64,000 bases of DNA from [Lactobacillus] rogosae (GTDB lineage Bacteria; Bacillota; Clostridia; Lachnospirales; Lachnospiraceae), in NCBI GenBank assembly GCA_900112995.1, contig FONU01000003.1, forward strand, positions 1-64,000, written 5' to 3'. The notes beneath the pieces were generated by a model. That model searched no databases, was not told where the DNA came from, and saw only the letters and a program-made list of their open reading frames with translations. The position numbers and the translations under genes are program-made. Positions 240-12,759 of this stretch are shown here, piece after piece. The stretch's first letter is position 1, and each line of letters opens with the position of its first letter.

Positions 240-1178
240 ATGAAAGCATTAGTAATTGGCGGAGGCGGTTTTGTCGGTCCATATCTTGTAAGACATCTTA
301 CTGATGATTGTGGATACGAGGTTACAGTTACTAAGACAGAGAAAGAACAGCTTGTTATGGATAATGCAGTTGTTAAGAATCTTGATATTCTTGACATTGG
401 ACAGATAGTAGAATTGCTTAAGGCTGAACAGCCTGATTATATATTTCATCTTGCTGCACAGTCATCAGTTGCATATTCGTGGAAGAATCCAACGCTTACA
501 ATTGATGTTAATATAAAAGGCTGTGTTAATCTTCTTGATGCTGTAAGACAGCTTGATAAAAAGCCAAGAGTACTTCTTATAGGTTCGGGTGAAGAATACG
601 GACATATCAAAGAGGGTGAATGTCCGATTGTTGAAGATAATACAGTTCGTCCAGGCAATATATATGCCGCTACAAAGGCATGCCAGAATATGTTGGGAAA
701 GATATATTCTGATGCTTATGGCCTTGATATAATGATGGTAAGGGCATTTAACCATATAGGTCCTAACCAGACACCTATGTTTGTTGTAGCTGATTTCTGC
801 AAGCAGGTTGCAGATATTGAGAAAGGCAGACAGGAGCCAGTTATATATGTTGGTAATCTAAGTGCCAAGAGAGATTTTACAGATGTAAGAGATGTAGTAA
901 AGGCCTATGCACTTCTTGTTGAACATGGCAGACGTGGAGAGACATATAATGTAGGAACTGGACACGCAATTGCAATCAGTCAGATACTTGATGAGATAGT
1001 AGCAATGTCTGATACAGCCATTGAGGTTAAGGTTGATGAGAATAAGCTACGCCCTGTAGATGTTCCAATTATAGAACCTGACATAGACAAGATTAAGAGT
1101 GAAGTCGGCTGGCAGCCGGTTATTTCATTAGAGCAGACTCTTAAAGAAACACTTGAGCATTGGAGAAGTGTGGATTGA
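240..1178 (+). CDS. rmd: GDP-6-deoxy-D-mannose reductase (GDP-4-keto-6-deoxymannose reductase)
   Basis: A 312-residue extended short-chain dehydrogenase that would reduce GDP-4-keto-6-deoxy-D-mannose to GDP-D-rhamnose. The Rossmann glycine motif GGGGFVGPYL is at residues 8-17. LAAQSSVAYSW, the catalytic YAATK (Y142, K146), and the stretches RAFNHIGPNQ and KRDFTDVRDVVKAY are characteristic of the RMD subfamily rather than of GDP-fucose synthase. The start follows a GAGG-type ribosome binding site. It lies just behind gmd and ahead of the CDP-sugar genes, all on one strand. A general NAD-dependent epimerase is the fallback call. Confidence 0.85.
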   Translation: MKALVIGGGGFVGPYLVRHLTDDCGYEVTVTKTEKEQLVMDNAVVKNLDILDIGQIVELLKAEQPDYIFHLAAQSSVAYSWKNPTLTIDVNIKGCVNLLDAVRQLDKKPRVLLIGSGEEYGHIKEGECPIVEDNTVRPGNIYAATKACQNMLGKIYSDAYGLDIMMVRAFNHIGPNQTPMFVVADFCKQVADIEKGRQEPVIYVGNLSAKRDFTDVRDVVKAYALLVEHGRRGETYNVGTGHAIAISQILDEIVAMSDTAIEVKVDENKLRPVDVPIIEPDIDKIKSEVGWQPVISLEQTLKETLEHWRSVD

Positions 1179-1230: not shown

Positions 1231-2007
1231 ATGAAGGTTGTATTATTAGCTGGTGGTTTCGGAACAAGAATAAGTGAAGAAAGCCAGTTTAAGCCAAAGC
1301 CAATGATTGAGATTGGCGGTAAGCCAATTCTTTGGCATATTATGAAAGAATATGAATATTATGGATTTAATGAATTTATTATATGTGCTGGTTATAAGCA
1401 GTATGTAATAAAGGAATGGTTCGCTGATTATTTCCTTCATAATAGTGATATTACATTTGACTTTACTAAAGGTTCTAATGATATGATAATCCACGAACAG
1501 CATTGTGAGCCTTGGAAGGTAACTGTAGTTGATACAGGACTTAATACTATGACAGGTGGAAGAATTAAGAGAGTACAGAAGTATGTAGGTAATGAACCTT
1601 TCCTTATGACTTATGGTGATGGCGTATGTGATGTTGATATATCAAAGCTTGTAGAGTTCCATAAGGAACACGGAAAGATTGCTACTCTTACATCAGTTAT
1701 GCTTGAACAGCAGAAGGGTGTTCTTGATATTGGCGGAGATAATGCTGTTAAGTCTTTCAGAGAGAAGAGTGTTATGGATGGTGCACCAATCAATGCTGGT
1801 TATATGGTACTTAATCCTGAAATATTTGATTATATTGAAGGTGATAACACAGTATTTGAGAAAGATCCACTTGAGAAGCTTGCTAAGGAAGGACAACTTA
1901 TGTCTTATATGCACAATGGCTTCTGGCAGTGTATGGATAACAAGAGAGAAATGGATATGCTTGAGAAGTATCTTAGCACAGGAACAGCTCCTTGGAAAAA
2001 ATGGTAA
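1231..2007 (+). CDS. rfbF: Glucose-1-phosphate cytidylyltransferase
   Basis: A 258-residue nucleotidyltransferase making CDP-glucose from glucose-1-phosphate and CTP, the first step to CDP-3,6-dideoxyhexoses. The N-terminus VVLLAGGFGTRISEES followed by KPKPMIEIGGKPILWH is the family signature. MTYGDGVCDVD carries the metal-binding aspartate. The ATG at 1231 was chosen over an in-frame ATG at 1153 because GGAGG lies six bases before it and the protein then has the usual length of about 257 residues; the upstream ATG would overlap rmd. rfbG follows 29 bases downstream, and the trio rfbF-rfbG-rfbH is in canonical order. Confidence 0.93.
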   Translation: MKVVLLAGGFGTRISEESQFKPKPMIEIGGKPILWHIMKEYEYYGFNEFIICAGYKQYVIKEWFADYFLHNSDITFDFTKGSNDMIIHEQHCEPWKVTVVDTGLNTMTGGRIKRVQKYVGNEPFLMTYGDGVCDVDISKLVEFHKEHGKIATLTSVMLEQQKGVLDIGGDNAVKSFREKSVMDGAPINAGYMVLNPEIFDYIEGDNTVFEKDPLEKLAKEGQLMSYMHNGFWQCMDNKREMDMLEKYLSTGTAPWKKW

Positions 2008-2036: not shown

Positions 2037-3086
2037 ATGGATTTAAGTTTTTATAAAGGCAAAAAAGTTCTTGTTACAGGACATACAGGATTTAAGGGTT
2101 CTTGGCTTTGCAGAATTCTTGTAAAAGCAGGAGCAGAGGTTACAGGATATTCACTTGAAGCACCTACGGATCCTAATCTTTTTTCAATGGCAGACGTTGA
2201 GAACAATATTAATTCTGTTATAGGTGATATAAGAGATTTAGCACATTTAAAGGAAGTGTTTAAGGAAGTACAGCCTGAGATAGTATTACATCTTGCTGCA
2301 CAGCCTATTGTAAGGGATTCATATAAAGACCCTGTATACACTTATGAAACTAATGTTATGGGTACAGTTAATATATGTGAATGTGTAAGACTTAACCCTT
2401 GTGTTAAATCATTCCTTAATGTAACTACTGATAAGGTATACCATAATAATGAATGGGCATGGGGTTATAGGGAAAATGAACCACTTGACGGATATGATCC
2501 ATATTCTAACAGTAAATCCTGCTCAGAGCTTGTTACACACAGTTATATCAATTCATTCTTCAATGATATGGATGTATCTGTATCAACAGCAAGAGCTGGT
2601 AATGTAATCGGCGGCGGTGATTTTGCCAATGACAGAATTGTGCCAGATTGTGTAAGAGCAGCTATTAAGAAGGAAGATATAGTTGTACGTAACCCACATT
2701 CAACAAGACCATACCAGCACGTATTAGAACCACTTGCAGCTTATCTTATGATAGCTATGGAACAGTTCAAAGATAAGAAGTATGCTGATTTCTATAACGT
2801 AGGTCCAGATGAAAGCGATTGTATAACAACAGGAGTTCTTGTAGACACATTTTGTAATAAATGGGGCGAAGGACTTAAATGGGTTAACAAGTATGACGGA
2901 GGTCCACACGAGGCTAATTTCTTAAAGCTTGACTGCTCTAAGTTAAAGACAACATTTGGCTGGAAACCACGCTGGAACTTTGATACAGCTATTGAAAAGT
3001 CAGTTGAATGGTCAAAGGTATATGCGGCTAATGGCGATGTAGTTAAATGTATGGATATGCAGATAGACGAATTCTTTGCAGAATAA
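2037..3086 (+). CDS. rfbG: CDP-glucose 4,6-dehydratase
   Basis: A 349-residue extended SDR enzyme converting CDP-glucose to CDP-4-keto-6-deoxyglucose. The NAD-binding motif TGHTGFKGSWL spans residues 14-24. The catalytic residues lie in YSNSK (Y156, K160), and LNVTTDKVYHNNEW is the typical active-site strand of CDP-glucose dehydratases. Length is normal for the family. It lies between rfbF and rfbH, with a 29-base gap upstream and 20 bases downstream, so the three are probably cotranscribed. Confidence 0.93.
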   Translation: MDLSFYKGKKVLVTGHTGFKGSWLCRILVKAGAEVTGYSLEAPTDPNLFSMADVENNINSVIGDIRDLAHLKEVFKEVQPEIVLHLAAQPIVRDSYKDPVYTYETNVMGTVNICECVRLNPCVKSFLNVTTDKVYHNNEWAWGYRENEPLDGYDPYSNSKSCSELVTHSYINSFFNDMDVSVSTARAGNVIGGGDFANDRIVPDCVRAAIKKEDIVVRNPHSTRPYQHVLEPLAAYLMIAMEQFKDKKYADFYNVGPDESDCITTGVLVDTFCNKWGEGLKWVNKYDGGPHEANFLKLDCSKLKTTFGWKPRWNFDTAIEKSVEWSKVYAANGDVVKCMDMQIDEFFAE

Positions 3087-3106: not shown

Positions 3107-4444
3107 ATGTTTGATAATAAGAATGAATTAGAAGCAAGAGAAGAAATTCTTGCAATGGTAGATGAGTACTGCAAGAAGTATCATAACCAGAAACAGTACA
3201 AAGAGGGAGACAGAATATCATACGCAAGCCGTGTGTATGACAGCAAGGAAATGATGAATCTTGTTGATTCAGCACTTGAATTCTGGCTTACATCAGGACG
3301 TTATACAGATGAGTTTGAAAAGAAGCTCGGTGAATACCTTAATGTAAAGTATGTATCAGTTGTCAACTCAGGTTCATCAGCTAACCTTAACGCATTTATG
3401 GCACTTACATCACCACTTCTTGGTGAGAGAAGAATTAACAGAGGTGATGAGATTATCACTGTTGCTGCTGGTTTCCCAACTACAGTTACTCCAGCTATCC
3501 AGTATGGTGCAGTTCCTGTATTTGTAGACGTTACAATTCCACAGTACAATATTGATGTAACAAAGCTTGAAGAAGCATATTCAGATAAGACAAAAGCTGT
3601 TATGATTGCACATACACTTGGTAATCCATTTGATTTATCAGCAGTTAAGGAATTCTGTGATAAGCACAATCTCTGGTTAGTAGAAGATAACTGTGATGCA
3701 CTTGGTTCAAAATATACAATTAATGGAGAAGAGAAGTTCACAGGTACAATCGGTGATATAGGAACAAGCAGCTTCTATCCTCCACACCATATGACAATGG
3801 GTGAAGGTGGTGCCGTATATACTAACAACCCACTTCTTAACAAGTGTATCCGTTCATTCAGAGACTGGGGACGTGACTGCGTATGTCCTTCTGGTAAGGA
3901 TAATCTCTGTGGACACAGATTTGATAAGCAGTATGGCGAGCTTCCATTAGGATATGACCATAAGTATGTATATTCACATTTTGGTTATAATCTCAAGGCA
4001 ACAGATATGCAGACAGCAGTAGGCTGTGCACAGCTTGAGAAGTTCCCTTCATTTGTTGAGAGAAGAAGACATAACTTTGACAGATTAAGAGCAGCACTTG
4101 CTGATATTGAAGATAAGGTAATTCTTCCAGTTCCTTGTGATAATTCAAGACCAAGCTGGTTTGGTTTCCTTATTACAGTAAGAGAAGGTCTTGACAGAAA
4201 GGCAATCGTAGAATATATCGAAAGCCACGGTGTCCAGACAAGAAACCTCTTTGCTGGTAACCTTATAAAGCACCCTTGCTTTGATGAGATGAGAGCAACA
4301 GGAGAAGGCTACAGAGTAGTAGGAACTCTTGACAACACAGACAGAATTATGAGAGATACATTCTGGGTAGGTGTATATCCAGGAATGACAGATGAGATGA
4401 TTGATTATATGGCTAAGACAATCAAGGAAGCTGTTAATCAGTAA
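3107..4444 (+). CDS. rfbH: CDP-4-keto-6-deoxy-D-glucose 3-dehydrase (E1, RfbH type)
   Basis: A 445-residue PMP-dependent aminotransferase-fold dehydratase that removes the C3 hydroxyl of CDP-4-keto-6-deoxyglucose, giving the 3,6-dideoxy sugar. At the normal lysine position it has histidine (PPHHMTMGEGG, H227/H228), the hallmark of E1 dehydrases that replace transamination by dehydration. The cysteine cluster CVCPSGKDNLC (C-x-C-x7-C), with an earlier cysteine in EDNCDALG, is the [2Fe-2S] site of this family. E1 enzymes normally need a flavin/iron-sulfur reductase (E3, RfbI/AscD); none is encoded in this window. GGAGG precedes the ATG. Confidence 0.93.
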   Translation: MFDNKNELEAREEILAMVDEYCKKYHNQKQYKEGDRISYASRVYDSKEMMNLVDSALEFWLTSGRYTDEFEKKLGEYLNVKYVSVVNSGSSANLNAFMALTSPLLGERRINRGDEIITVAAGFPTTVTPAIQYGAVPVFVDVTIPQYNIDVTKLEEAYSDKTKAVMIAHTLGNPFDLSAVKEFCDKHNLWLVEDNCDALGSKYTINGEEKFTGTIGDIGTSSFYPPHHMTMGEGGAVYTNNPLLNKCIRSFRDWGRDCVCPSGKDNLCGHRFDKQYGELPLGYDHKYVYSHFGYNLKATDMQTAVGCAQLEKFPSFVERRRHNFDRLRAALADIEDKVILPVPCDNSRPSWFGFLITVREGLDRKAIVEYIESHGVQTRNLFAGNLIKHPCFDEMRATGEGYRVVGTLDNTDRIMRDTFWVGVYPGMTDEMIDYMAKTIKEAVNQ

Positions 4445-4472
4445 TTTATGGTCATAAGGAAAGTACATTAAT

Positions 4473-4979
4473 ATGGGTAAGACAATATACGGTTTTATTG
4501 AAAAAATTTATATGTTTTTTGTTGAGCTGCTTTTTAAGATTATCAAAAAGGACTTAACAGACAAGAAAAGACAGACATTCAAGGAATTCTTACAGTTTGG
4601 ATTAGTAGGTGTGTCTAATACAATTATTTCTTATTTACTTTATGTTGTAACACTTTTGCTTGTATCTAAGAGCGGTGTAAAGTTTGATTATATCATTGCG
4701 AACATTGTTTCCTGGTTACTTAGTGTTCTTTGGTCATTTTACTGGAATAACAAGTTTGTATTTAAGAAAGAAGAAGGCGAAAAAAGAAATATATGGGCAG
4801 CATTATTTAAGACATATGTTTCTTATGGATTTACAGGATTGATTCTTAATAATATATTATCAGTATTGTGGGTATCAGTTCTTCATATAAGCAAGATGTT
4901 AGCACCTATTATTAATCTTGTTATAAGTATTCCTATCAACTTCTTTATGAATAAGCTTTGGGCATTTGGCAAAAAGTAA
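4473..4979 (+). CDS. GtrA-family membrane protein (putative polyprenyl-phosphate sugar flippase)
   Basis: A 168-residue protein with about four hydrophobic segments. FLQFGLVGVSNTIISYLLY in the first segment, SFYWNNKFVF after the second, and INFFMNKLWAF at the C-terminus are the GtrA signature. GtrA proteins are thought to flip undecaprenyl-phosphate-linked sugars made by a GtrB-type glycosyltransferase. Such a glycosyltransferase is encoded at the end of the same cluster (10124-11080), separated by four enzyme genes. It is 28 bases behind rfbH. The first 38 residues form a basic cytoplasmic arm. Confidence 0.85.
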   Translation: MGKTIYGFIEKIYMFFVELLFKIIKKDLTDKKRQTFKEFLQFGLVGVSNTIISYLLYVVTLLLVSKSGVKFDYIIANIVSWLLSVLWSFYWNNKFVFKKEEGEKRNIWAALFKTYVSYGFTGLILNNILSVLWVSVLHISKMLAPIINLVISIPINFFMNKLWAFGKK

Positions 4980-5008
4980 TTAACTAATTATGATGGAAGG
5001 TAAGTAAC

Positions 5009-6520
5009 TTGGGTAGAATTCAGCTATTAGATTGTACATTACGAGATGGTGGATATGTTAATGACTGGAATTTCGGTCATAATAATTTAATAAGTATATT
5101 TGAAAGGCTTGTAAATGCCAGAATTGATATAGTAGAAGTTGGATTTATTGATGAAAGAAGAAAGTTCGACATCAATAGAAGTATCCTTCCTGATACCAGA
5201 AGCTTTGAAGAAGTATATGGTAAATGTAACCATAAAGATACTATGGTTGTAGGTATGATAGACTACGGTACTTGTAGTCTGTCTAACCTTCAGCCTTGTA
5301 ATGAGTCCATATTAGATGGAATAAGGGTAATATTTAAAAAAGATAAGAGAAAAGAAGCTGTTGAATACTGTGCCAAGGTAAAAGCACTTGGTTATAAGGT
5401 ATTTGTACAGCTTGTTTCAATTACAAGCTATAATGATGAAGAATTGCAGGATTTAATAAAGCTTGCTAATGATATAGAGCCATATGCAGTATCAATGGTT
5501 GACACATATGGTCTGTTGCAGAAGGATAGTCTTTTGCATTATTTTTATATGCTTGATGAGGGGTTAAAGGAAAATATAAGTCTTGGATACCATTCGCACA
5601 ATAATTTCCAGAGAGCATTTGCTAATTGTCAGGAAATGCTTCTATGTAATACGAAAAGAGATGTACTTGTAGATGCTACAGTATATGGGATGGGGAAAAG
5701 TGCAGGTAATTGTCCGATAGAGCTTCTGGCTATGCACCTTAATGATTATTATAATAAGAATTATGATATAAGCCAGATTTTGGAAGCCTTGAACTGTAAT
5801 ATTATGGATATTTACAGAACTAAGCCTTGGGGCTATAATATGTTCTTTTATATGGCGGCATTTAACAGCTGTCATCCAAGCTATGTTTCATATCTTATGG
5901 ATAAGGAAAACTTATCAATAAGGCAGATTAATGAAATATTATCTGAACTTGCTAAGAGTGAAGATAAGCAGCTTATGTATGATGAGCAGTTTATAAAGCA
6001 GTTATATGATAATTACAAGAAAATAATTACAGATATTTCAGATGAATCATATAATAATTTAAAGAAAGATTTATATAATCAGAATATCATTATAAAAAGT
6101 GCTGGGGTTAATCAGGATATTATGGTTAAGCCTGATGTAGATGACAGCAAAGTAACAGTATCAGATGATAACAGAATTTATAAGGGAACGGTAATATGGG
6201 TTAACAGTCTTGCTAAAGATATTACGATATCGTTTGACAGTCTGACTGATAAAGGCATAGATGATAAATCAGACCAGCTGGATGAGTATGTATTTATCAG
6301 TGACAGTAAAAGCTATGTTAATCTGTCAGCACAGTTATCAGACAGACCAGATACAGTAAAGATTATTACATTAAGTGATGTTACGCCTAATAATGGTGAC
6401 CATTTTGATTATGTATTTGATAAAGAAGAATTCAAGAATACTACTGGCTCAGATGAAGCTGGTGATAATTCATTATATATATTAAAGTTGATTTTAGGAA
6501 AATGCGGTTTTATCATATAA
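5009..6520 (+). CDS. HMGL-like (DRE-TIM) aldolase with a C-terminal extension of unknown function
   Basis: A 503-residue protein whose first ~280 residues are an HMG-CoA-lyase/4-hydroxy-2-oxovalerate-aldolase-like metal-dependent TIM barrel. LLDCTLRDGG (D8, R12, D13) and GYHSHNN (H195, H197) are the catalytic and metal ligands, and VYGMGKSAGNCPIELL is the conserved barrel-end motif. Residues from about 300 on match no domain I recognise. The start is TTG at 5009, with GGAAGG eight bases upstream; the nearby ATG codons are out of frame. It lies among CDP-dideoxyhexose genes and ahead of a HAD phosphatase and a TPP enzyme. I infer it makes a keto-acid or aldehyde precursor for a sugar side chain; the substrate is unknown. 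Confidence 0.75.
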   Translation: MGRIQLLDCTLRDGGYVNDWNFGHNNLISIFERLVNARIDIVEVGFIDERRKFDINRSILPDTRSFEEVYGKCNHKDTMVVGMIDYGTCSLSNLQPCNESILDGIRVIFKKDKRKEAVEYCAKVKALGYKVFVQLVSITSYNDEELQDLIKLANDIEPYAVSMVDTYGLLQKDSLLHYFYMLDEGLKENISLGYHSHNNFQRAFANCQEMLLCNTKRDVLVDATVYGMGKSAGNCPIELLAMHLNDYYNKNYDISQILEALNCNIMDIYRTKPWGYNMFFYMAAFNSCHPSYVSYLMDKENLSIRQINEILSELAKSEDKQLMYDEQFIKQLYDNYKKIITDISDESYNNLKKDLYNQNIIIKSAGVNQDIMVKPDVDDSKVTVSDDNRIYKGTVIWVNSLAKDITISFDSLTDKGIDDKSDQLDEYVFISDSKSYVNLSAQLSDRPDTVKIITLSDVTPNNGDHFDYVFDKEEFKNTTGSDEAGDNSLYILKLILGKCGFII

Positions 6521-6545
6521 ATATCACAAGAAAAAGGAAATAACT

Positions 6546-7196
6546 ATGGGAAAATATGAGATAGCGGTATTTGATGTAGACGGAACACTTCTTGATACAA
6601 CAGAAGGAGTTCTTGCATCAGTAAAATATACAATAGATAAGATGGGATTTGAGCCATTAAGTGAGGATGTTTTAAAGACATTTATCGGACCACCAATTCA
6701 GGACTCATTCGCTAAAGCATATAATCTTAGTGGAGATATATTACAGGACATTGCAACCTGCTTTAGAAACAGATATAAGGATTATGAGCTTCTTAAGGCA
6801 GTTCCATATGATGGAATATATGAAGTGTTTGACAAGCTTATGGAAAGAAATGTAAAGCTTGCGGTAGCAACTTATAAAAGACAGGATTATGCTGAGGCAA
6901 TTTTAAAGCATTTTGGATTTGATAAGTATACTAATATATTATATGGTGCTGACCATAATAATAAGTTAAAAAAGGTTGATATTATCGAGAAATGTATGGT
7001 TGACTTAGGAGTTACTGATTATTCTAATGCAGTTATGATTGGTGACAGCAGTCACGATGCTATCGGTGCAGAAAAGATTGGTATGGATTTCATAGGTGTA
7101 ACCTATGGATTTGATTTCAGGGCACCAGAAGATGTATACAAGTTCAAGGCAGTAGGAGCGGCGGCAATGCCTTTAGACCTGCTTAATTTAATATAA
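6546..7196 (+). CDS. HAD-superfamily phosphatase (phosphoglycolate-phosphatase-like)
   Basis: A 216-residue HAD hydrolase. VFDVDGTLLDT (nucleophile D10, acid/base D12) is motif I, the lysine near KLKKVDII fits motif III, and MIGDSSHDAIGAEKIG is motif IV with its acidic pair. A helical cap lies between residues 15 and 90, as in the Gph/PGMB group. It starts 25 bases after the aldolase and ends 34 before the TPP enzyme, so it probably acts in the same pathway, perhaps dephosphorylating an aldol product. The substrate cannot be told from sequence. Confidence 0.85.
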   Translation: MGKYEIAVFDVDGTLLDTTEGVLASVKYTIDKMGFEPLSEDVLKTFIGPPIQDSFAKAYNLSGDILQDIATCFRNRYKDYELLKAVPYDGIYEVFDKLMERNVKLAVATYKRQDYAEAILKHFGFDKYTNILYGADHNNKLKKVDIIEKCMVDLGVTDYSNAVMIGDSSHDAIGAEKIGMDFIGVTYGFDFRAPEDVYKFKAVGAAAMPLDLLNLI

Positions 7197-7230
7197 AGAT
7201 AGAATATTATTAAAAGGATGGATAAACATT

Positions 7231-9048
7231 ATGAGAATGAAAGTTGCAAAATATATATCAGAATTCTTTGTTAAGCAGGGTGTAACCGATATGTTTATGA
7301 TAACTGGTGGAGCAGCTATGCACCTTAATGATGCATTTGGACATCAGGAAGGCTTAAAGATTACTTATAATCATCACGAACAGGCTTGTACAATTGCTGC
7401 AGAAGGTTATACAAGACAGACAGGAAAAATTGCTCCTGTATGTGTAACTGGTGGTCCTGGCGGAACTAATGCAATTACAGGTGTATTCGGTGCATATGTT
7501 GATTCTATTCCAATGTTTGTTGTTACCGGACAGGCTAAAAGAGAGACAACAGTATGGTCAACTAACCTTCCGCTTCGTCAGCTTGGTGATCAGGAAGTTA
7601 ATATTACATCAGCAGTATCTACTATGACTAAGTATGCCAAGATGATTACAGATCCTATGAGTATAAGAAAAGAAGTTGAGAAGGCTTGGTTTCTTATGCT
7701 TAATGGACGTCCGGGTCCGGTATGGCTCGATATTCCTGGCGATGTTGCCTCAACATTTATTGAAACAGACGATTTAGAGGGCTTTGACAAGCAGGGTTAT
7801 ATTGATGAGCACTGGGCATCATTTAATCAGGATAATCCGGTATATGATGAACAGTATACTAAGGATGTGCTTGCGAAGATTAAAGAAGCTAAAAGACCTG
7901 TAATACTTGCAGGAACAGCTATAAGACACGCTAACCAGCAGAATGAATTCATTAAATGTATAGATAAGCTTGGAATTCCAGTTGTTACAGCGTGGGACGC
8001 ACACGATATTATATGGGATGAGCACCCATTATATTGTGGAAGACCTGGTACAGTAGGTACAAGGGCAGGTAATTTCATAGTTCAGAACGCAGATTTACTT
8101 ATTGTATTAGGCTGTAGAATGAATATCCGTATGATAGGATATAATTTTGGCGATTTTGGCAAAAATGCTTATAAGATAGTTGTTGATATAGATGATGCAG
8201 AGCTTAATAAGCCAACAGTGAAGGTTGATTATCCTGTTCACGCAGATTTAAGGGATTTCTTCAAGTCTGTTAACGAGGCAGAATATGAGAAGAATAACAG
8301 CCATAAGGAATGGGTTGACTGGTGCAGACAATTAGATAAGAAGTATCCAGCCACACTTCCAGAATATTATGAAGATAAAGACGGCTTAAATCCATATGTG
8401 TTCACAACAAAGTTATTTGAGGAATTAAATGAAGATGACAGTGTTGTGTGCAGTAATGGTGCGGCGTGTGTTATAACATTTCAGGCGGCTGATATTAAGA
8501 AGGGTCAGAGATTATATACTAATTCGGGTTGTGCGGCAATGGGTTATGGACTTCCAGCAGCAGTAGGAGCAAGCGTGTCAGAACCAGATAAGAGAATTAT
8601 CTGTGTTGAGGGTGATGGAAGCTTTATGATGAATATGCAGGAGTTACAGACTATTGTATACAATAATCTTGATATCAAGATATTCCTTATTAATAATAAT
8701 GGATATCATTCTATCAGACAGACACAGACTAATCTGTTTAAGGGACAGCCATATGTAGGAATTGGTGGAGGATATGGTCTTAGCACACCAGACTTCTCAA
8801 GAGTAATACCAGCTTTTGATATTCCTTATTACAGAATAGACAGACTTGATGGCATTAATGAAACTATAGATGAAGTTATTAACCATAAGGGTCCTGTATT
8901 CTGTGAGGTAGTTGTAGACTGGCACCAGAATTTTGCACCAAAGTCAAGTTCAAAGGTACTTCCAGACGGAAAGATAGTATCAGCGGCAGTTGATGATATG
9001 GCACCATTCCTTGACAGGGAAGAATATGAAAGCAATCATCTTGCATAA
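7231..9048 (+). CDS. Thiamine-pyrophosphate-dependent enzyme, acetolactate-synthase-like (candidate YerE-type acyl transferase)
   Basis: A 605-residue three-domain TPP enzyme. The catalytic glutamate lies in NHHEQACTIAAEGY (E50), GGPGGTNAITG follows, a central Rossmann-like domain spans roughly 205-340, and the TPP/metal motif GDGSFMMN...INNNGY is at about 461-493. Full-length acetolactate-synthase-like proteins next to CDP-3,6-dideoxyhexose genes recall YerE of Yersinia, which adds an acetyl unit from pyruvate to C4 of CDP-4-keto-3,6-dideoxyglucose. Context is the main reason for that inference. A biosynthetic acetolactate synthase is less likely, because no ilv genes are near. Confidence 0.8.
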   Translation: MRMKVAKYISEFFVKQGVTDMFMITGGAAMHLNDAFGHQEGLKITYNHHEQACTIAAEGYTRQTGKIAPVCVTGGPGGTNAITGVFGAYVDSIPMFVVTGQAKRETTVWSTNLPLRQLGDQEVNITSAVSTMTKYAKMITDPMSIRKEVEKAWFLMLNGRPGPVWLDIPGDVASTFIETDDLEGFDKQGYIDEHWASFNQDNPVYDEQYTKDVLAKIKEAKRPVILAGTAIRHANQQNEFIKCIDKLGIPVVTAWDAHDIIWDEHPLYCGRPGTVGTRAGNFIVQNADLLIVLGCRMNIRMIGYNFGDFGKNAYKIVVDIDDAELNKPTVKVDYPVHADLRDFFKSVNEAEYEKNNSHKEWVDWCRQLDKKYPATLPEYYEDKDGLNPYVFTTKLFEELNEDDSVVCSNGAACVITFQAADIKKGQRLYTNSGCAAMGYGLPAAVGASVSEPDKRIICVEGDGSFMMNMQELQTIVYNNLDIKIFLINNNGYHSIRQTQTNLFKGQPYVGIGGGYGLSTPDFSRVIPAFDIPYYRIDRLDGINETIDEVINHKGPVFCEVVVDWHQNFAPKSSSKVLPDGKIVSAAVDDMAPFLDREEYESNHLA

Positions 9049-9076
9049 CTGTAATTGATAATTTATAATCATTCAT

Positions 9077-9118
9077 TGGGACAGCGTAAATATCAGTAAT
9101 GATAGTCTTGCTGTCCCA
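9077..9118 (+). other. Inverted repeat between two cluster genes
   Basis: TGGGACAGC at 9077-9085 is repeated exactly as its complement GCTGTCCCA at 9110-9118 with a 24-base spacer. It could form a hairpin in the mRNA after the TPP gene. No T-run follows, so a terminator is doubtful. Partial attenuation or mRNA processing between the aldolase-HAD-TPP block and the downstream reductase is possible. Confidence 0.4.
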
Positions 9119-9163
9119 TATCAGGATAAATATAGAAACCAGTATATAGAAATGGGGATTTTA

Positions 9164-10084
9164 ATGAAAAGAGCGGTAATTACAGGACCTACAGGTTCTA
9201 TTGGATTAGCACTGATTAATGAACTTGTATCTAACGGAGTAGAGGTTGTTGCTGTTGTAAGACCGGGTTCAAGACGTGCAGACAGAATTAAGACAAGTGA
9301 TATGGTAAAGCGTGTTGACTGCGATTTGTCAGAGCTTAATAAACTGCCAGAGCTTATTCGAGAGGGAGCTGATGTGTTCTATCATTTTGGCTGGGACGGA
9401 ACATTTGGCAACAGCAGAAATAATATGTATGGACAAAATCTTAATGTAAAATATGCACTTGATGCGGTTGAAGCTGCTTTTGCACTTGGCTGTGATACTT
9501 TTATAGGTGCTGGTTCACAGGCTGAATATGGCAGATATGAAGGCTCTTTGAATGAGAGTGTTCCTGCATTTCCTGAAAATGGTTATGGGATTGCCAAGTT
9601 ATGTGCTGGACAGATGACAAGAATTGCCTGTAAGCAGAAGGGAATGCGTCATATATGGACAAGGATACTTAGCATATATGGTCCTTATGATGGTGAGAAT
9701 ACAATGGTTATGAGCACTATTTACAAGCTTCTTAATTCAGAAAAGCCATCTTGTACTAAGGGTGAGCAGATGTGGGATTTCCTTTATTCAAAGGATGCAG
9801 CATTAGCAATGAGATTACTTGGTGAGAAAGGTACAGACGGTAGAACATACTGCATAGGAAGCGGTAAAGCAAGACCATTAAAAGAATATATTGATATTAT
9901 AGGACAAAATGCCAATAAAAATGTCACAATAGGATATGGAGATATTCCATATGGTCCTTTACAGGTAATGTACTTGTGTGCAGATATTACAGCGTTAAGA
10001 GAAGACACTGGATTTGAGCCAAGGTATTCTTTTGAAGATGGTATAAAAGAGACAATAGAATGGTGTAGAACACAGAATTTATAA
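9164..10084 (+). CDS. NAD(P)-dependent epimerase/dehydratase, candidate CDP-sugar reductase
   Basis: A 306-residue extended SDR protein. The Rossmann motif TGPTGSIG (G8, G11, G14) is at the N-terminus and the catalytic YGIAK (Y141, K145) is present. YHFGWDGTFGNSRNN and AGSQAEYGRYEG resemble the abequose/paratose-synthase-like and YerF-like group, but I cannot place it in one subfamily. Start ATG 9164 is preferred over the in-frame ATG at 9152, which has no ribosome site; GGGGA lies five bases before 9164. It probably reduces the keto group of the CDP-dideoxysugar made upstream. Confidence 0.75.
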   Translation: MKRAVITGPTGSIGLALINELVSNGVEVVAVVRPGSRRADRIKTSDMVKRVDCDLSELNKLPELIREGADVFYHFGWDGTFGNSRNNMYGQNLNVKYALDAVEAAFALGCDTFIGAGSQAEYGRYEGSLNESVPAFPENGYGIAKLCAGQMTRIACKQKGMRHIWTRILSIYGPYDGENTMVMSTIYKLLNSEKPSCTKGEQMWDFLYSKDAALAMRLLGEKGTDGRTYCIGSGKARPLKEYIDIIGQNANKNVTIGYGDIPYGPLQVMYLCADITALREDTGFEPRYSFEDGIKETIEWCRTQNL

Positions 10085-10123
10085 TATCTTAGATGTAATA
10101 AAGAAGTAAGAATGGAGATTAAG

Positions 10124-11080
10124 ATGAAGAAGATTAGTATTATGGTACCTTGTTATAATGAGGAAGAAAATGTTATACCTCTCAGCGAAGCGTTGATAGA
10201 GATGTTTGCAAAGGATCTGCCACAGTATGATTATGACATAACATTTATTGATAACGACTCAACTGATACAACAAGAGTTAAGTTAAGACAGTTATGTGAG
10301 GGTAATAAGAAGATTAAGGCAATATTTAATGCTAAGAATTTTGGACAGTTTAATTCTCCATATTATGGTATTATTAATACAGATGGCGATTGTACAATAC
10401 CAGTATGTGCAGACTTTCAGGACCCTATTGATGTAATTCCAAGACTTGTAGCAGAATGGGAAAAGGGCTATAAGATAGTATGTGCAGTAAAGTCAAGCAG
10501 TAAAGAAAGCAAGATAATGTATTTCTTAAGAACCTGTTATTACAAGCTTATTAAAAAAATGTCTTCTGTTGAACAGATAGAGCATTTTACAGGTTTTGGT
10601 TTATATGACAAGTCATTTGTACAGGTTATGAGGGACTTGAAAGATCCAATCCCATTTTTAAGAGGTGTTGTTGGAGAATTAGGGTTTAAGAGAACTGAGA
10701 TTGAGTATACACAGGCACAGAGAAGAGCAGGAAAGACACATAATAATTTCTTTACCCTTTATGATGCTGCAATGTTAAGCTTTACATCATATACTAAGCT
10801 TGGATTAAGACTTGCAACATTTGTTGGTGGATTCTTTGGTCTTGTCAGCATAATTGTTGGAATTGTATACCTTGTTCTTAAGCTTGTATACTGGAACAGA
10901 TTTACAGCTGGGATGGTTCCTCTTATTCTCCTTGTCAGCATATTAGGTTCATTACAGCTTATATTCATAGGTCTTATGGGAGAATATATATTAAGTATGA
11001 ACCAGCGACTTATGAACAGACCATTAGTTGTTGAGGAAGAAAGATTAAATTTTGATGATGCTGATAAGTCAGATAAGTAA
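10124..11080 (+). CDS. Family 2 glycosyltransferase, GtrB/DPM1-like
   Basis: A 318-residue membrane-anchored glycosyltransferase. The GT2 fold begins with ISIMVPCYNEEENV, the acidic centre is FIDNDSTD, and CADFQDPIDV matches the ADLQDP motif of GtrB and polyprenyl-phosphate glycosyltransferases. Two hydrophobic segments near residues 225-290 anchor it. It would load a sugar onto undecaprenyl phosphate at the inner membrane face, for the GtrA-like protein earlier in the cluster to flip. Start ATG 10124 has GGAG six bases before it; the ATG at 10112 overlaps that site. A terminator follows. Confidence 0.85.
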   Translation: MKKISIMVPCYNEEENVIPLSEALIEMFAKDLPQYDYDITFIDNDSTDTTRVKLRQLCEGNKKIKAIFNAKNFGQFNSPYYGIINTDGDCTIPVCADFQDPIDVIPRLVAEWEKGYKIVCAVKSSSKESKIMYFLRTCYYKLIKKMSSVEQIEHFTGFGLYDKSFVQVMRDLKDPIPFLRGVVGELGFKRTEIEYTQAQRRAGKTHNNFFTLYDAAMLSFTSYTKLGLRLATFVGGFFGLVSIIVGIVYLVLKLVYWNRFTAGMVPLILLVSILGSLQLIFIGLMGEYILSMNQRLMNRPLVVEEERLNFDDADKSDK

Positions 11081-11286: not shown

Positions 11287-12759
11287 ATGTTAAAAGATTG
11301 GAACAAGGTAGAACAGCCAACAGCAGAGGAAGTGGATAAAAGACTTGCCAATGCAAAGAACAGCCTTTTACAACAGCAGATTGCTATGAAAGAAAAGAAG
11401 CTTCCAGTAATCGTACTGCTTGAGGGCTGGGGTGCGGCAGGAAAAGGAAGTGTGCTTGGAAAGTTAATTAAGAATATAGATCCACGTTTTTTCAAGGTTG
11501 CAGTTATGGACGAACCGACAGAGGAGGAGAAAAGAAAGCCGTTCCTTTACAGACATTTTGTAAAAATTCCAGAGGCAGGAAAGTTCGTGTTTATGGACAG
11601 CGGCTGGATGTCAGAGGTTACAAGCCAGAAGTTAAGCGGCGAGCTTTCAGAGGAAGAATATAAGAAGAGGATAGAGAGTATTAAAAGATTTGAACGACAG
11701 CTTACGGATAATGGATATCTCCTGCTTAAGTTCTTCTTTAATATTGATAAGAAGGAGCAGAAGAAGCGATTAAAGAAGTTAGTGGAAGATAAGAATACAG
11801 CATGGAGAGTAAGTAAGCACGACAGATGGCAGAATAAGCATTATGATGAATGTATGGAAGTGTATGACCAGTTTCTGTGTGATACCAATCATTCGACAGC
11901 ACCCTGGTATATAGTAGATGCGAAGGATAAGAAGTGGGCACAGTTACAGATACTAGAGACTATAGTACAGGGCATTGACACAGCATTTGCCAACAGTGCA
12001 CTGTCAGTTCCGCTTCTTCAGAATGCATTCCCATTAAAGCCAATAAGCAGGTTAGATGAGGTTAGCCTTGATAAAAGCCTTACAGATGAGGAATACGAAA
12101 GGCTTCTTGACCTTTATCAGAAGCGTTTAAAGGAGCTTCATAATGAATTATATAGAAAGAAGATACCAGTTATAATTGCATATGAAGGCTGGGACGCGGC
12201 AGGAAAAGGCGGCAATATCAAGAGAATAACAGAAGCACTTGACCCAAGAGGTTATGAAGTGCACCCAATAGCAAGTCCTGAACCACACGAGAAATCAAGA
12301 CATTACCTTTGGAGATTCTGGAACCGGCTTCCAAAGACAGGACACGTTGCAATATTTGACAGGACCTGGTATGGACGGGTTATGGTTGAACGTCTTGAGG
12401 GTTTTTGCAGTAAGAATGACTGGCAGAGAGCCTATGTTGAGATTAATGAATTTGAGAAAGAACTTTCCGACTGGGGAGCAATTATTGTAAAGTTCTGGGT
12501 TCAGATAGATAAGGATACACAGCTTGCCAGATTTAAGGAAAGAGAGAATACACCAGAGAAACGTTGGAAAATCACTGATGAGGACTGGCGTAACAGGGAG
12601 AAATGGGACAGCTATGAGGAAGCCGTTAATGAGATGTTAGAAAAGACTAACACGTCATATGCTCCGTGGCACATACTTGAGTCTAACGATAAGAAGTATG
12701 CAAGAATAAAAGCACTTAAGACAGTAATTGAGGCAATTGAAAAGTATGAAGCTAAATAA
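11287..12759 (+). CDS. pap: Polyphosphate:AMP phosphotransferase (tandem PPK2 domains)
   Basis: A 490-residue protein with two PPK2 domains, the layout of class II polyphosphate:AMP phosphotransferase, which makes ADP from AMP and polyphosphate. Walker A motifs are EGWGAAGKGS (residues 46-55) and EGWDAAGKGG (300-309). The second domain has the full lid motif FDRTWYGRV; in the first it has become FMDSGWMSEV, so the first domain is probably non-catalytic, as known for this family. The start is ATG 11287 with GGAGG eight bases upstream; an in-frame ATG at 11209 lies in the preceding terminator. A TATAAT at 11245-11250 may be its -10. Confidence 0.88.
   Translation: MLKDWNKVEQPTAEEVDKRLANAKNSLLQQQIAMKEKKLPVIVLLEGWGAAGKGSVLGKLIKNIDPRFFKVAVMDEPTEEEKRKPFLYRHFVKIPEAGKFVFMDSGWMSEVTSQKLSGELSEEEYKKRIESIKRFERQLTDNGYLLLKFFFNIDKKEQKKRLKKLVEDKNTAWRVSKHDRWQNKHYDECMEVYDQFLCDTNHSTAPWYIVDAKDKKWAQLQILETIVQGIDTAFANSALSVPLLQNAFPLKPISRLDEVSLDKSLTDEEYERLLDLYQKRLKELHNELYRKKIPVIIAYEGWDAAGKGGNIKRITEALDPRGYEVHPIASPEPHEKSRHYLWRFWNRLPKTGHVAIFDRTWYGRVMVERLEGFCSKNDWQRAYVEINEFEKELSDWGAIIVKFWVQIDKDTQLARFKERENTPEKRWKITDEDWRNREKWDSYEEAVNEMLEKTNTSYAPWHILESNDKKYARIKALKTVIEAIEKYEAK

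Follow-up and report, generated by a model that had tools for sequence, protein, structure and literature searches.

A candidate operon in [Lactobacillus] rogosae for a branched CDP-3,6-dideoxysugar, combining an HMGL-like aldolase with a YerE-like carboligase

Carboligases of the YerE kind attach acyl units to a CDP-activated keto sugar. YerE of Yersinia pseudotuberculosis adds the two-carbon unit of pyruvate to CDP-4-keto-3,6-dideoxyglucose; ErwE of Pectobacterium rejects pyruvate and prefers 4-hydroxy-2-oxo acids on the way to erwiniose, and MMAR_2332 of Mycobacterium resembles ErwE and leads to caryophyllose (PMC12247030). More than 200 YerE-like enzymes have been listed in silico, and they are of interest for the synthesis of chiral tertiary alcohols (PMC12247030). 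Here we analyse an operon in which an enzyme of this kind is accompanied by an aldolase and a phosphatase. It lies at the start of contig FONU01000003.1 of [Lactobacillus] rogosae (GenBank assembly GCA_900112995.1), in a stretch of 64,000 nucleotides hereafter called the window. An earlier reading by a model without database searches (the sequence-only reading) had listed rfbF, rfbG and rfbH, an HMGL-like aldolase (ALD), a HAD phosphatase (HAD), a thiamine diphosphate (ThDP) enzyme (TPP) and an SDR reductase (SDR2), all of which are present as open frames on the plus strand.

The YerE/YerF system shares its acceptor, a ThDP carboligase and an SDR reductase with the route proposed for the window. 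Its carboligase uses pyruvate, and the available account names neither an aldolase nor a phosphatase as a partner (PMC12247030), whereas the window operon has both ALD and HAD. The donors that ErwE and MMAR_2332 reportedly prefer are hydroxylated 2-oxo acids and give branches of more than two carbons; the available account leaves the source of these acids unnamed and does not describe a pair such as ALD and HAD (PMC12247030). A longer branch on CDP-4-keto-3,6-dideoxyglucose is therefore an already known kind of structure and not new, because erwiniose and caryophyllose are published precedents. From its linkage to ALD, TPP may be of the same long-donor type as ErwE and MMAR_2332, which favours hydroxylated 2-oxo acids of more than about four carbons. 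YerF reduces the branch in yersiniose A, and SDR2 is assigned the same role by proposal.

The likely product of the operon, in our view, is a CDP-3,6-dideoxysugar branched at C4, with a sugar acid made for the purpose as the source of the branch. RfbF, RfbG and RfbH, whose family assignment is solid and which all exceed curated cut-offs for the CDP-3,6-dideoxyhexose pathway, would supply CDP-4-keto-3,6-dideoxyglucose. ALD would join pyruvate to an aldehyde, probably phosphorylated, giving a 3-deoxy-2-ulosonic acid, and HAD would remove the phosphate, in parallel to KdsA/KdsC. TPP would then decarboxylate the acid and, in the manner reported for ErwE, place the acyl anion on the C4 carbon of the keto sugar, and SDR2 would reduce the new ketone. 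The GtrB-like transferase may load the sugar on undecaprenyl phosphate and GtrA may flip the lipid-linked product, which would become a side branch of a surface polysaccharide whose gene set also includes a GDP-deoxymannose route. The central step, in which a non-pyruvate keto acid from aldolase and phosphatase is added by TPP to C4, had been proposed in the sequence-only reading and is supported here by genomic evidence, to which the cytidylyltransferase neighbours of the ALD family, the relatives of HAD found there and the absence of PF02348 from the window's genome add further weight.

To describe the linkage of these genes, we surveyed 299 genomes from 298 genera, the window's genome included, all of one family code that is Lachnospiraceae-like to judge by its named relatives. 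TPP matches of at least 300 bits were counted as YerE-like, ALD matches of at least 400 bits as close, and two-domain ALD matches of 150-300 bits as distant. YerE-like TPP genes occurred at 102 places in 94 of the 299 genomes, and RfbH was above cut-off in 87 of these 94, as compared with 98 of 299 overall (Fisher P 8e-54; our Fisher tests ignore kinship, and nearly every genome comes from a separate genus). Close ALD homologues numbered 24 in 23 genomes, including the window's, and 23 of the 24 lay within 6 kb of a YerE-like TPP. The co-occurrence with rfbH that the sequence-only reading had anticipated was found: 21 of the 23 close-ALD genomes carry it (Fisher P 2e-9 relative to the same 98 of 299), and the exceptions are G138 and G179. 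In the latter, the sole close ALD without a TPP (locus L176) adjoins HAD and KdsB, and rfbH is absent; here an aldolase and a phosphatase of the window's kind have KdsB as their partner instead of TPP. The neighbourhoods of the best 80 of 318 TPP relatives were kept and 79 loci were fetched. Where TPP was at least 52% identical to that of the window (L002-L020 and L030, n = 20), ALD was found in 18 loci, and the other two (L012 and L016) are contigs of ~5 kb whose start is close to TPP or within it. The fetched flanks contained one or more of RfbF, RfbG and RfbH in 14 of these 20. Cultured relatives that carry the operon include Lachnospiraceae bacterium A4 (L004) and [Clostridium] fimetarium DSM 9179 (L008).

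On its sequence, TPP is YerE-like and not an acetolactate synthase (AHAS), in agreement with the sequence-only reading. Its best solved match is JanthE (8rph) with 381 bits, compared with 234 bits for AHAS 6lpi. JanthE is itself YerE-like and differs in its cofactor motif, which is CDG rather than the usual GDG of the window TPP (PMC12188165). We built a quick tree without bootstrap, which gave long-branch warnings, from 135 different rows, thinned to 114 by removing AHAS-like ones, of which 112 were used after leaving out L177 and L218 as far rows; YpYerE, ErwE and MMAR_2332 are not among the rows. TPP fell outside the 8 AHAS-like rows and into a clade of 38 rows (SH-aLRT 99), 34 of which have ALD nearby. 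The ALD label required 14 changes on the tree, versus 36 for shuffled labels. Between ALD-linked (34) and ALD-free (17) enzymes, 19 positions showed nearly fixed differences. One of these, position 275, is V in 34 of 34 ALD-linked and M in 16 of 17 ALD-free enzymes and aligns, as read by eye, with Tyr268 of JanthE, an active-site residue that was tested in that enzyme (PMC12188165). The ALD-specific positions tended to cluster around hot spots of JanthE (4 of the 19 lay at most 3 residues away, P 0.016, and 5 of the 19 at most 8, P 0.07), although this comparison is post hoc and weak.

What ALD makes can be approached through its relatives. We took the 69 ALD rows having an open frame of at least 500 aa and at least 150 bits, a filter that removed the shorter relatives with a single domain and, at the end of a contig, one row of 434 aa. 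A TPP or a cytidylyltransferase was found with 62 of the 69, and both with only two (L180 and the first ALD of L179). Among the 45 distant two-domain ALDs, 30 have a cytidylyltransferase of the KdsB, NeuA or PseF kind at a distance of up to 3.5 kb, 23 have KdsC or a HAD phosphatase in the same range, and 9 have a YerE-like TPP no more than 6 kb away. KdsC or a HAD phosphatase is also present at 17 of the 29 that have a cytidylyltransferase and no TPP, and relatives of the window's HAD stand near ALD-KdsB pairs in L171, L173, L176, L180, L187, L189 and L194. Seven of the 45 have neither a YerE-like TPP (300 bits, 6 kb) nor a cytidylyltransferase: four are by KdsC, two by an AHAS-like TPP and a HAD, and L217 by neither. 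Representative checks placed KdsB of L168 (280 bits, cut-off 255) and KdsC of L179 (153 bits, cut-off 107) above their thresholds; CTP_transf_3 was matched in L168, L170, L174 and L179, and L172 had no Pfam match. The substrates that KdsB- and NeuA-type cytidylyltransferases activate are 3-deoxy-2-ulosonic acids, and the ALD family therefore probably makes acids of this class. We found no paper on an ALD-type aldolase with a cytidylyltransferase, a polysaccharide or an ulosonic acid, to which we attach little weight. As a separate observation, L211 and L212 hold a conserved trio of a HAD, an ALD relative and an AHAS-like ThDP enzyme (~30% identity to TPP) in genomes without rfbH.

The proposed route thus has counterparts in the KdsA-KdsC-KdsB route to KDO and in the NeuB-type nonulosonate routes, which likewise run from a condensing enzyme through a phosphatase to the use of a 3-deoxy-2-ulosonic acid, and whose KdsB/PseF-like and KdsC-like genes adjoin ALD relatives. 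It differs in that ALD is an aldolase of the DmpG fold, whereas KdsA and NeuB are phosphoenolpyruvate-dependent synthases, and in that the window's acid would be decarboxylated rather than CMP-activated. ALD has the fold of pyruvate aldolases together with their metal and pyruvate residues. Compared with DmpG itself (4-hydroxy-2-oxovalerate aldolase, 1nvm), it has an extra C-terminal domain and scores 66 bits against TIGR03217 (cut-off 286), and the window operon contains no aldehyde dehydrogenase. A simple DmpG role, with acetaldehyde and pyruvate, is disfavoured by HAD here and by the KdsB/KdsC-type partners of the relatives, which point to a phosphorylated, longer aldehyde.

Several observations weigh against this reading. 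G138 has ALD, TPP, rfbF and rfbG, and no RfbH match; L015 and L020 have ALD and TPP and none of rfbF, rfbG and rfbH in their fetched flanks, as do the short contigs L013 and L030. Four rows of the 38-row clade have no ALD in view (L012, L016, L106 and L099). In the first three, the contig breaks off on the side that should hold ALD, which is not so for L099 (1.5 kb seen), and two-domain ALD is absent from the genomes of L099 (75% complete) and L106 (95% complete). HAD or KdsC was within 3.5 kb of only 14 of 23 close ALDs, mostly with short flanks; the ALD of G286:C16 had no locus, so cytidylyltransferases and phosphatases were examined for 23 of 24, with mostly 1.5 kb of flank in view. While the window's genome has no PF02348 cytidylyltransferase, a PF02348 protein occurs somewhere in 18 of the 23 close-ALD genomes, and the argument that the acid has no other fate is therefore limited to 5 of the 23, among them the window's. 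PF02348 also includes cytidylyltransferases for other substrates. In ALD, Tyr16 stands at the place of the catalytic His21 of DmpG. TPP scores only 209 bits against 5ahk, presumably a Pseudomonas YerE, which is less than its 234 bits against AHAS 6lpi, so that YerE-like denotes a loose sequence group. Lastly, no RfbI-type reductase partner of RfbH was found in the window's genome, a draft of 49 contigs. Its only two PF00175 matches are a PyrK-like protein (239 bits, cut-off 314) and a member of a sulfide/dihydroorotate-dehydrogenase-like family (430 bits, cut-off 220).

The alternative that survives best, though we consider it unlikely, is that TPP uses pyruvate to form a two-carbon branch of the yersiniose A type, while ALD and HAD make an unrelated acid for the same polysaccharide. 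YpYerE is restricted to short donors (PMC12247030), the related JanthE accepts short as well as long ones (PMC12188165), and the ALD relatives appear to serve CMP-ulosonate pathways. However, the window's genome lacks the PF02348 cytidylyltransferase that such an acid would call for, close ALD and TPP stand together in 23 of 24 cases, and ALD-linked and ALD-free enzymes differ at fixed positions such as 275. Moreover, the pyruvate role could already be filled by a second YerE-like enzyme, TPP2, which has no ALD. 

TPP2 (50% identity to TPP, 628 bits) is encoded on another contig of the same genome (L088, G000:C15:1-20000, 6352-8190, minus strand). Measured against the L002 gene for GDP-mannose 4,6-dehydratase (GMD), residues 9-135 are encoded at the start of C15 (95%) and residues 300-351 at the start of the window. 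Because both starts carry parts of one GMD gene, the two contigs probably adjoin with a short gap, which would place TPP2, ~6 kb beyond the start of C15, just upstream in the same polysaccharide locus. Its surroundings include ManC, three group-1 glycosyltransferases and a Wzm/Wzt-type (ABC) exporter, and no aldolase was found near it on C15. The clade of TPP2 is a neighbour of the one with the window TPP and comprises 28 rows: 7 have ALD, 4 have ligase-like genes and the other 17 show no donor gene; the tree does not resolve the sister relation of the three neighbouring TPP clades. In 12 loci of the TPP2 kind seen at 14-20 kb (L148-L159), ALD was present in none and RfbH in 8. In our main reading, TPP2, with no aldolase nearby, probably uses pyruvate on the same keto sugar, so that a single locus may make two branched sugars.

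Farther clades of YerE-like enzymes adjoin other genes that could make keto acids. In all seven loci of the Acidocella type (L021-L026 and L040), a NeuB-type gene is directly upstream of TPP. The order in L021-L024 and L040 is NeuB-TPP-RfbF-RfbG-RfbH, with no CMP-sugar synthetase seen beside it, which suggests a decarboxylated ulosonate on the dideoxysugar. A NeuB-type gene is also near TPP in all ten loci of another clade (L043-L051 and L072), which lacks the complete rfbFGH set; the NeuB-linked TPP has an AMP-binding ligase and an SDR as neighbours in L043 and a FabA-like protein in L046. NeuB or PseI occurs within ~7 kb of TPP in L034, L035, L037, L039, L041 and L042, mostly with other nonulosonate-type genes, and was above cut-off in both loci tested (L034 and L041). 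An HpcH/HpaI-like gene is by TPP in L027 (27.8 bits, cut-off 25) and, below that cut-off, in L028 (20.2 bits). L029, L031, L032 and L038 have a YerE-like TPP beside paralogous CoA-ligase-like proteins of ~440 aa, with no aldolase seen; the match of these proteins to AMP-dependent CoA ligases is weak (~85 bits, cut-off 300, for both L029 copies tested). No gene for making a donor was seen in loci L033 and L036. Given that the neighbouring keto-acid makers differ among clades, and that BLAST found a KdsB/NeuA relative in only 2 of 51 loci (L002-L051 and L072), ~9 kb from TPP, the donor maker seems to be a replaceable module.

These neighbourhoods also bear on the idea that ALD, HAD and TPP make a free acyloin or another small metabolite that is never joined to the dideoxysugar. 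The far NeuB-linked clade, with the ligase and reductase of L043 and the FabA-like protein of L046 in place of rfbFGH, lends it some support, as do the four loci L013, L015, L020 and L030. The presence of rfbH in 21 of 23 close-ALD genomes and in the short-gap operon of the window makes this very improbable for the case at hand.

We give as little credence to the possibility that ALD cleaves, or acts on a sugar nucleotide, trimming or extending the branch after TPP. Pyruvate aldolases are reversible, and the intact C-terminal domain of ALD relatives has a fold known also from CMP-sugar transferases, with a cytidine nucleotide as a possible ligand. A fold search with this domain from L002 matched MptE-like HPPK, Maf, CstII-type (GT42) transferases and SteA; the domain has no Pfam family and no significant match in the PDB by sequence, and weak MptE-like matches were found in 8 of the 69 relatives. 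In the window, however, this potential nucleotide-holding domain (6023-6520) is degraded and shortened. The sequence-only reading was right to call ALD an HMGL-like aldolase but did not recognize it as a member of this two-domain family. Furthermore, in loci having a cytidylyltransferase and no TPP, the same family would have to act before activation.

It is scarcely conceivable that TPP serves branched amino-acid synthesis as an acetolactate synthase and is in the locus by chance, as its best NCBIfam matches are indeed AHAS models (340-342 bits) but fall far below their cut-offs of 538 and 976 (TIGR00118, 340 versus 538), a separate AHAS-like protein on another contig of the genome (34% identity to TPP, 227 bits) adjoins an IlvD above cut-off (TIGR00110, 687 bits), and the tree keeps TPP apart.

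The operon belongs to a locus of eleven plus-strand features running from the contig start to 11080 (Table 1). The sequence-only reading had gaps mostly under 40 bases; they measure 20-34 bases from RfbF through TPP and ~100 bases before SDR2. The span that it gave, 3107..10084, begins at rfbH, which leaves rfbF and rfbG outside, and its gene list stands except for the omission of GtrA (4473-4979), between rfbH and the aldolase, and of the GtrB-like transferase (10112-11080). The nearest relative, L002, has rfbF, rfbG, rfbH, ALD, HAD, TPP, an SDR and a GT2 glycosyltransferase in the order of the window, without GtrA, which implies that this order is not due to chance.

Table 1. Plus-strand features between the contig start and position 11080 of the window.
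Feature	Coordinates	Strand	Basis
GDP-mannose 4,6-dehydratase, 3' end, truncated at contig start	4..159	+	88% identity to L002 residues 300-351
SDR1, probably GDP-4-keto-6-deoxymannose reductase (from position)	240..1178	+	Pfam GDP_Man_Dehyd
RfbF, glucose-1-phosphate cytidylyltransferase	1231..2007	+	TIGR02623 367 bits, cut-off 300
RfbG, CDP-glucose 4,6-dehydratase	2037..3086	+	TIGR02622 446 bits, cut-off 278
RfbH, CDP-6-deoxy-4-keto-glucose 3-dehydrase	3107..4444	+	NF011936 720 bits, cut-off 423
GtrA-type membrane protein, presumed flippase for lipid-linked sugar	4473..4979	+	PF04138 78 bits
ALD, HMGL-like aldolase, 503 aa	5009..6520	+	PF00682; N-terminal DmpG-fold to ~6022; degraded C-terminal domain ~6023-6520
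HAD phosphatase, proposed ulosonate-phosphate phosphatase	6546..7196	+	HAD_2 121 bits
TPP, YerE-like ThDP carboligase	7231..9048	+	three TPP Pfam domains (AHAS/decarboxylase superfamily); best structure match JanthE 8rph
SDR2, extended SDR, proposed ketoreductase of added branch	9164..10084 (alternative start 9152)	+	PF01370 119 bits
GtrB/DPMS-like glycosyltransferase, presumed undecaprenyl phosphate loading	10112..11080	+	PF00535

The L002 counterpart of the truncated first gene is a GMD (TIGR01472, 476 bits, cut-off 415). No NCBIfam model exceeded its cut-off for SDR1, which has a relative (77%) after the GMD gene in L002 and probably belongs to the GDP-D-rhamnose branch, outside the branched-sugar route. 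RfbH has cysteines at 196, 258, 260 and 268, a spacing close to that expected for its Fe-S cluster. Relatives of SDR2 are near TPP in many related loci. The best NCBIfam matches of the GtrB-like protein are PgfS (149 bits) and the ArnC type (112 bits), both below cut-off. Downstream of the operon, at 11287-12759, is a PPK2 polyphosphate kinase with two PPK2 stretches.

These comparisons raise a broader picture, for and against which we find the evidence about evenly balanced. YerE-like enzymes would form a plug-in system coupled to an HMGL aldolase with HAD, to a NeuB-type synthase or to an HpcH-type aldolase. Ulosonic acids of the KDO or sialic kind would be decarboxylated and fused to a second sugar instead of being CMP-activated, giving higher-carbon branched sugars of ~11 to 14 carbons. 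In the window's locus, one enzyme paired with an aldolase and one unpaired would each turn the shared CDP-keto sugar into a different branched sugar.

The operon offers a concrete two-enzyme candidate for the source of hydroxylated keto acids, and its proposed route would tie sugar-acid biosynthesis to ThDP carboligation. With a YerE-like TPP in 94 of 299 genomes and rfbH in 87 of those 94, it predicts that many branched sugars as yet unseen are made in the sampled family.

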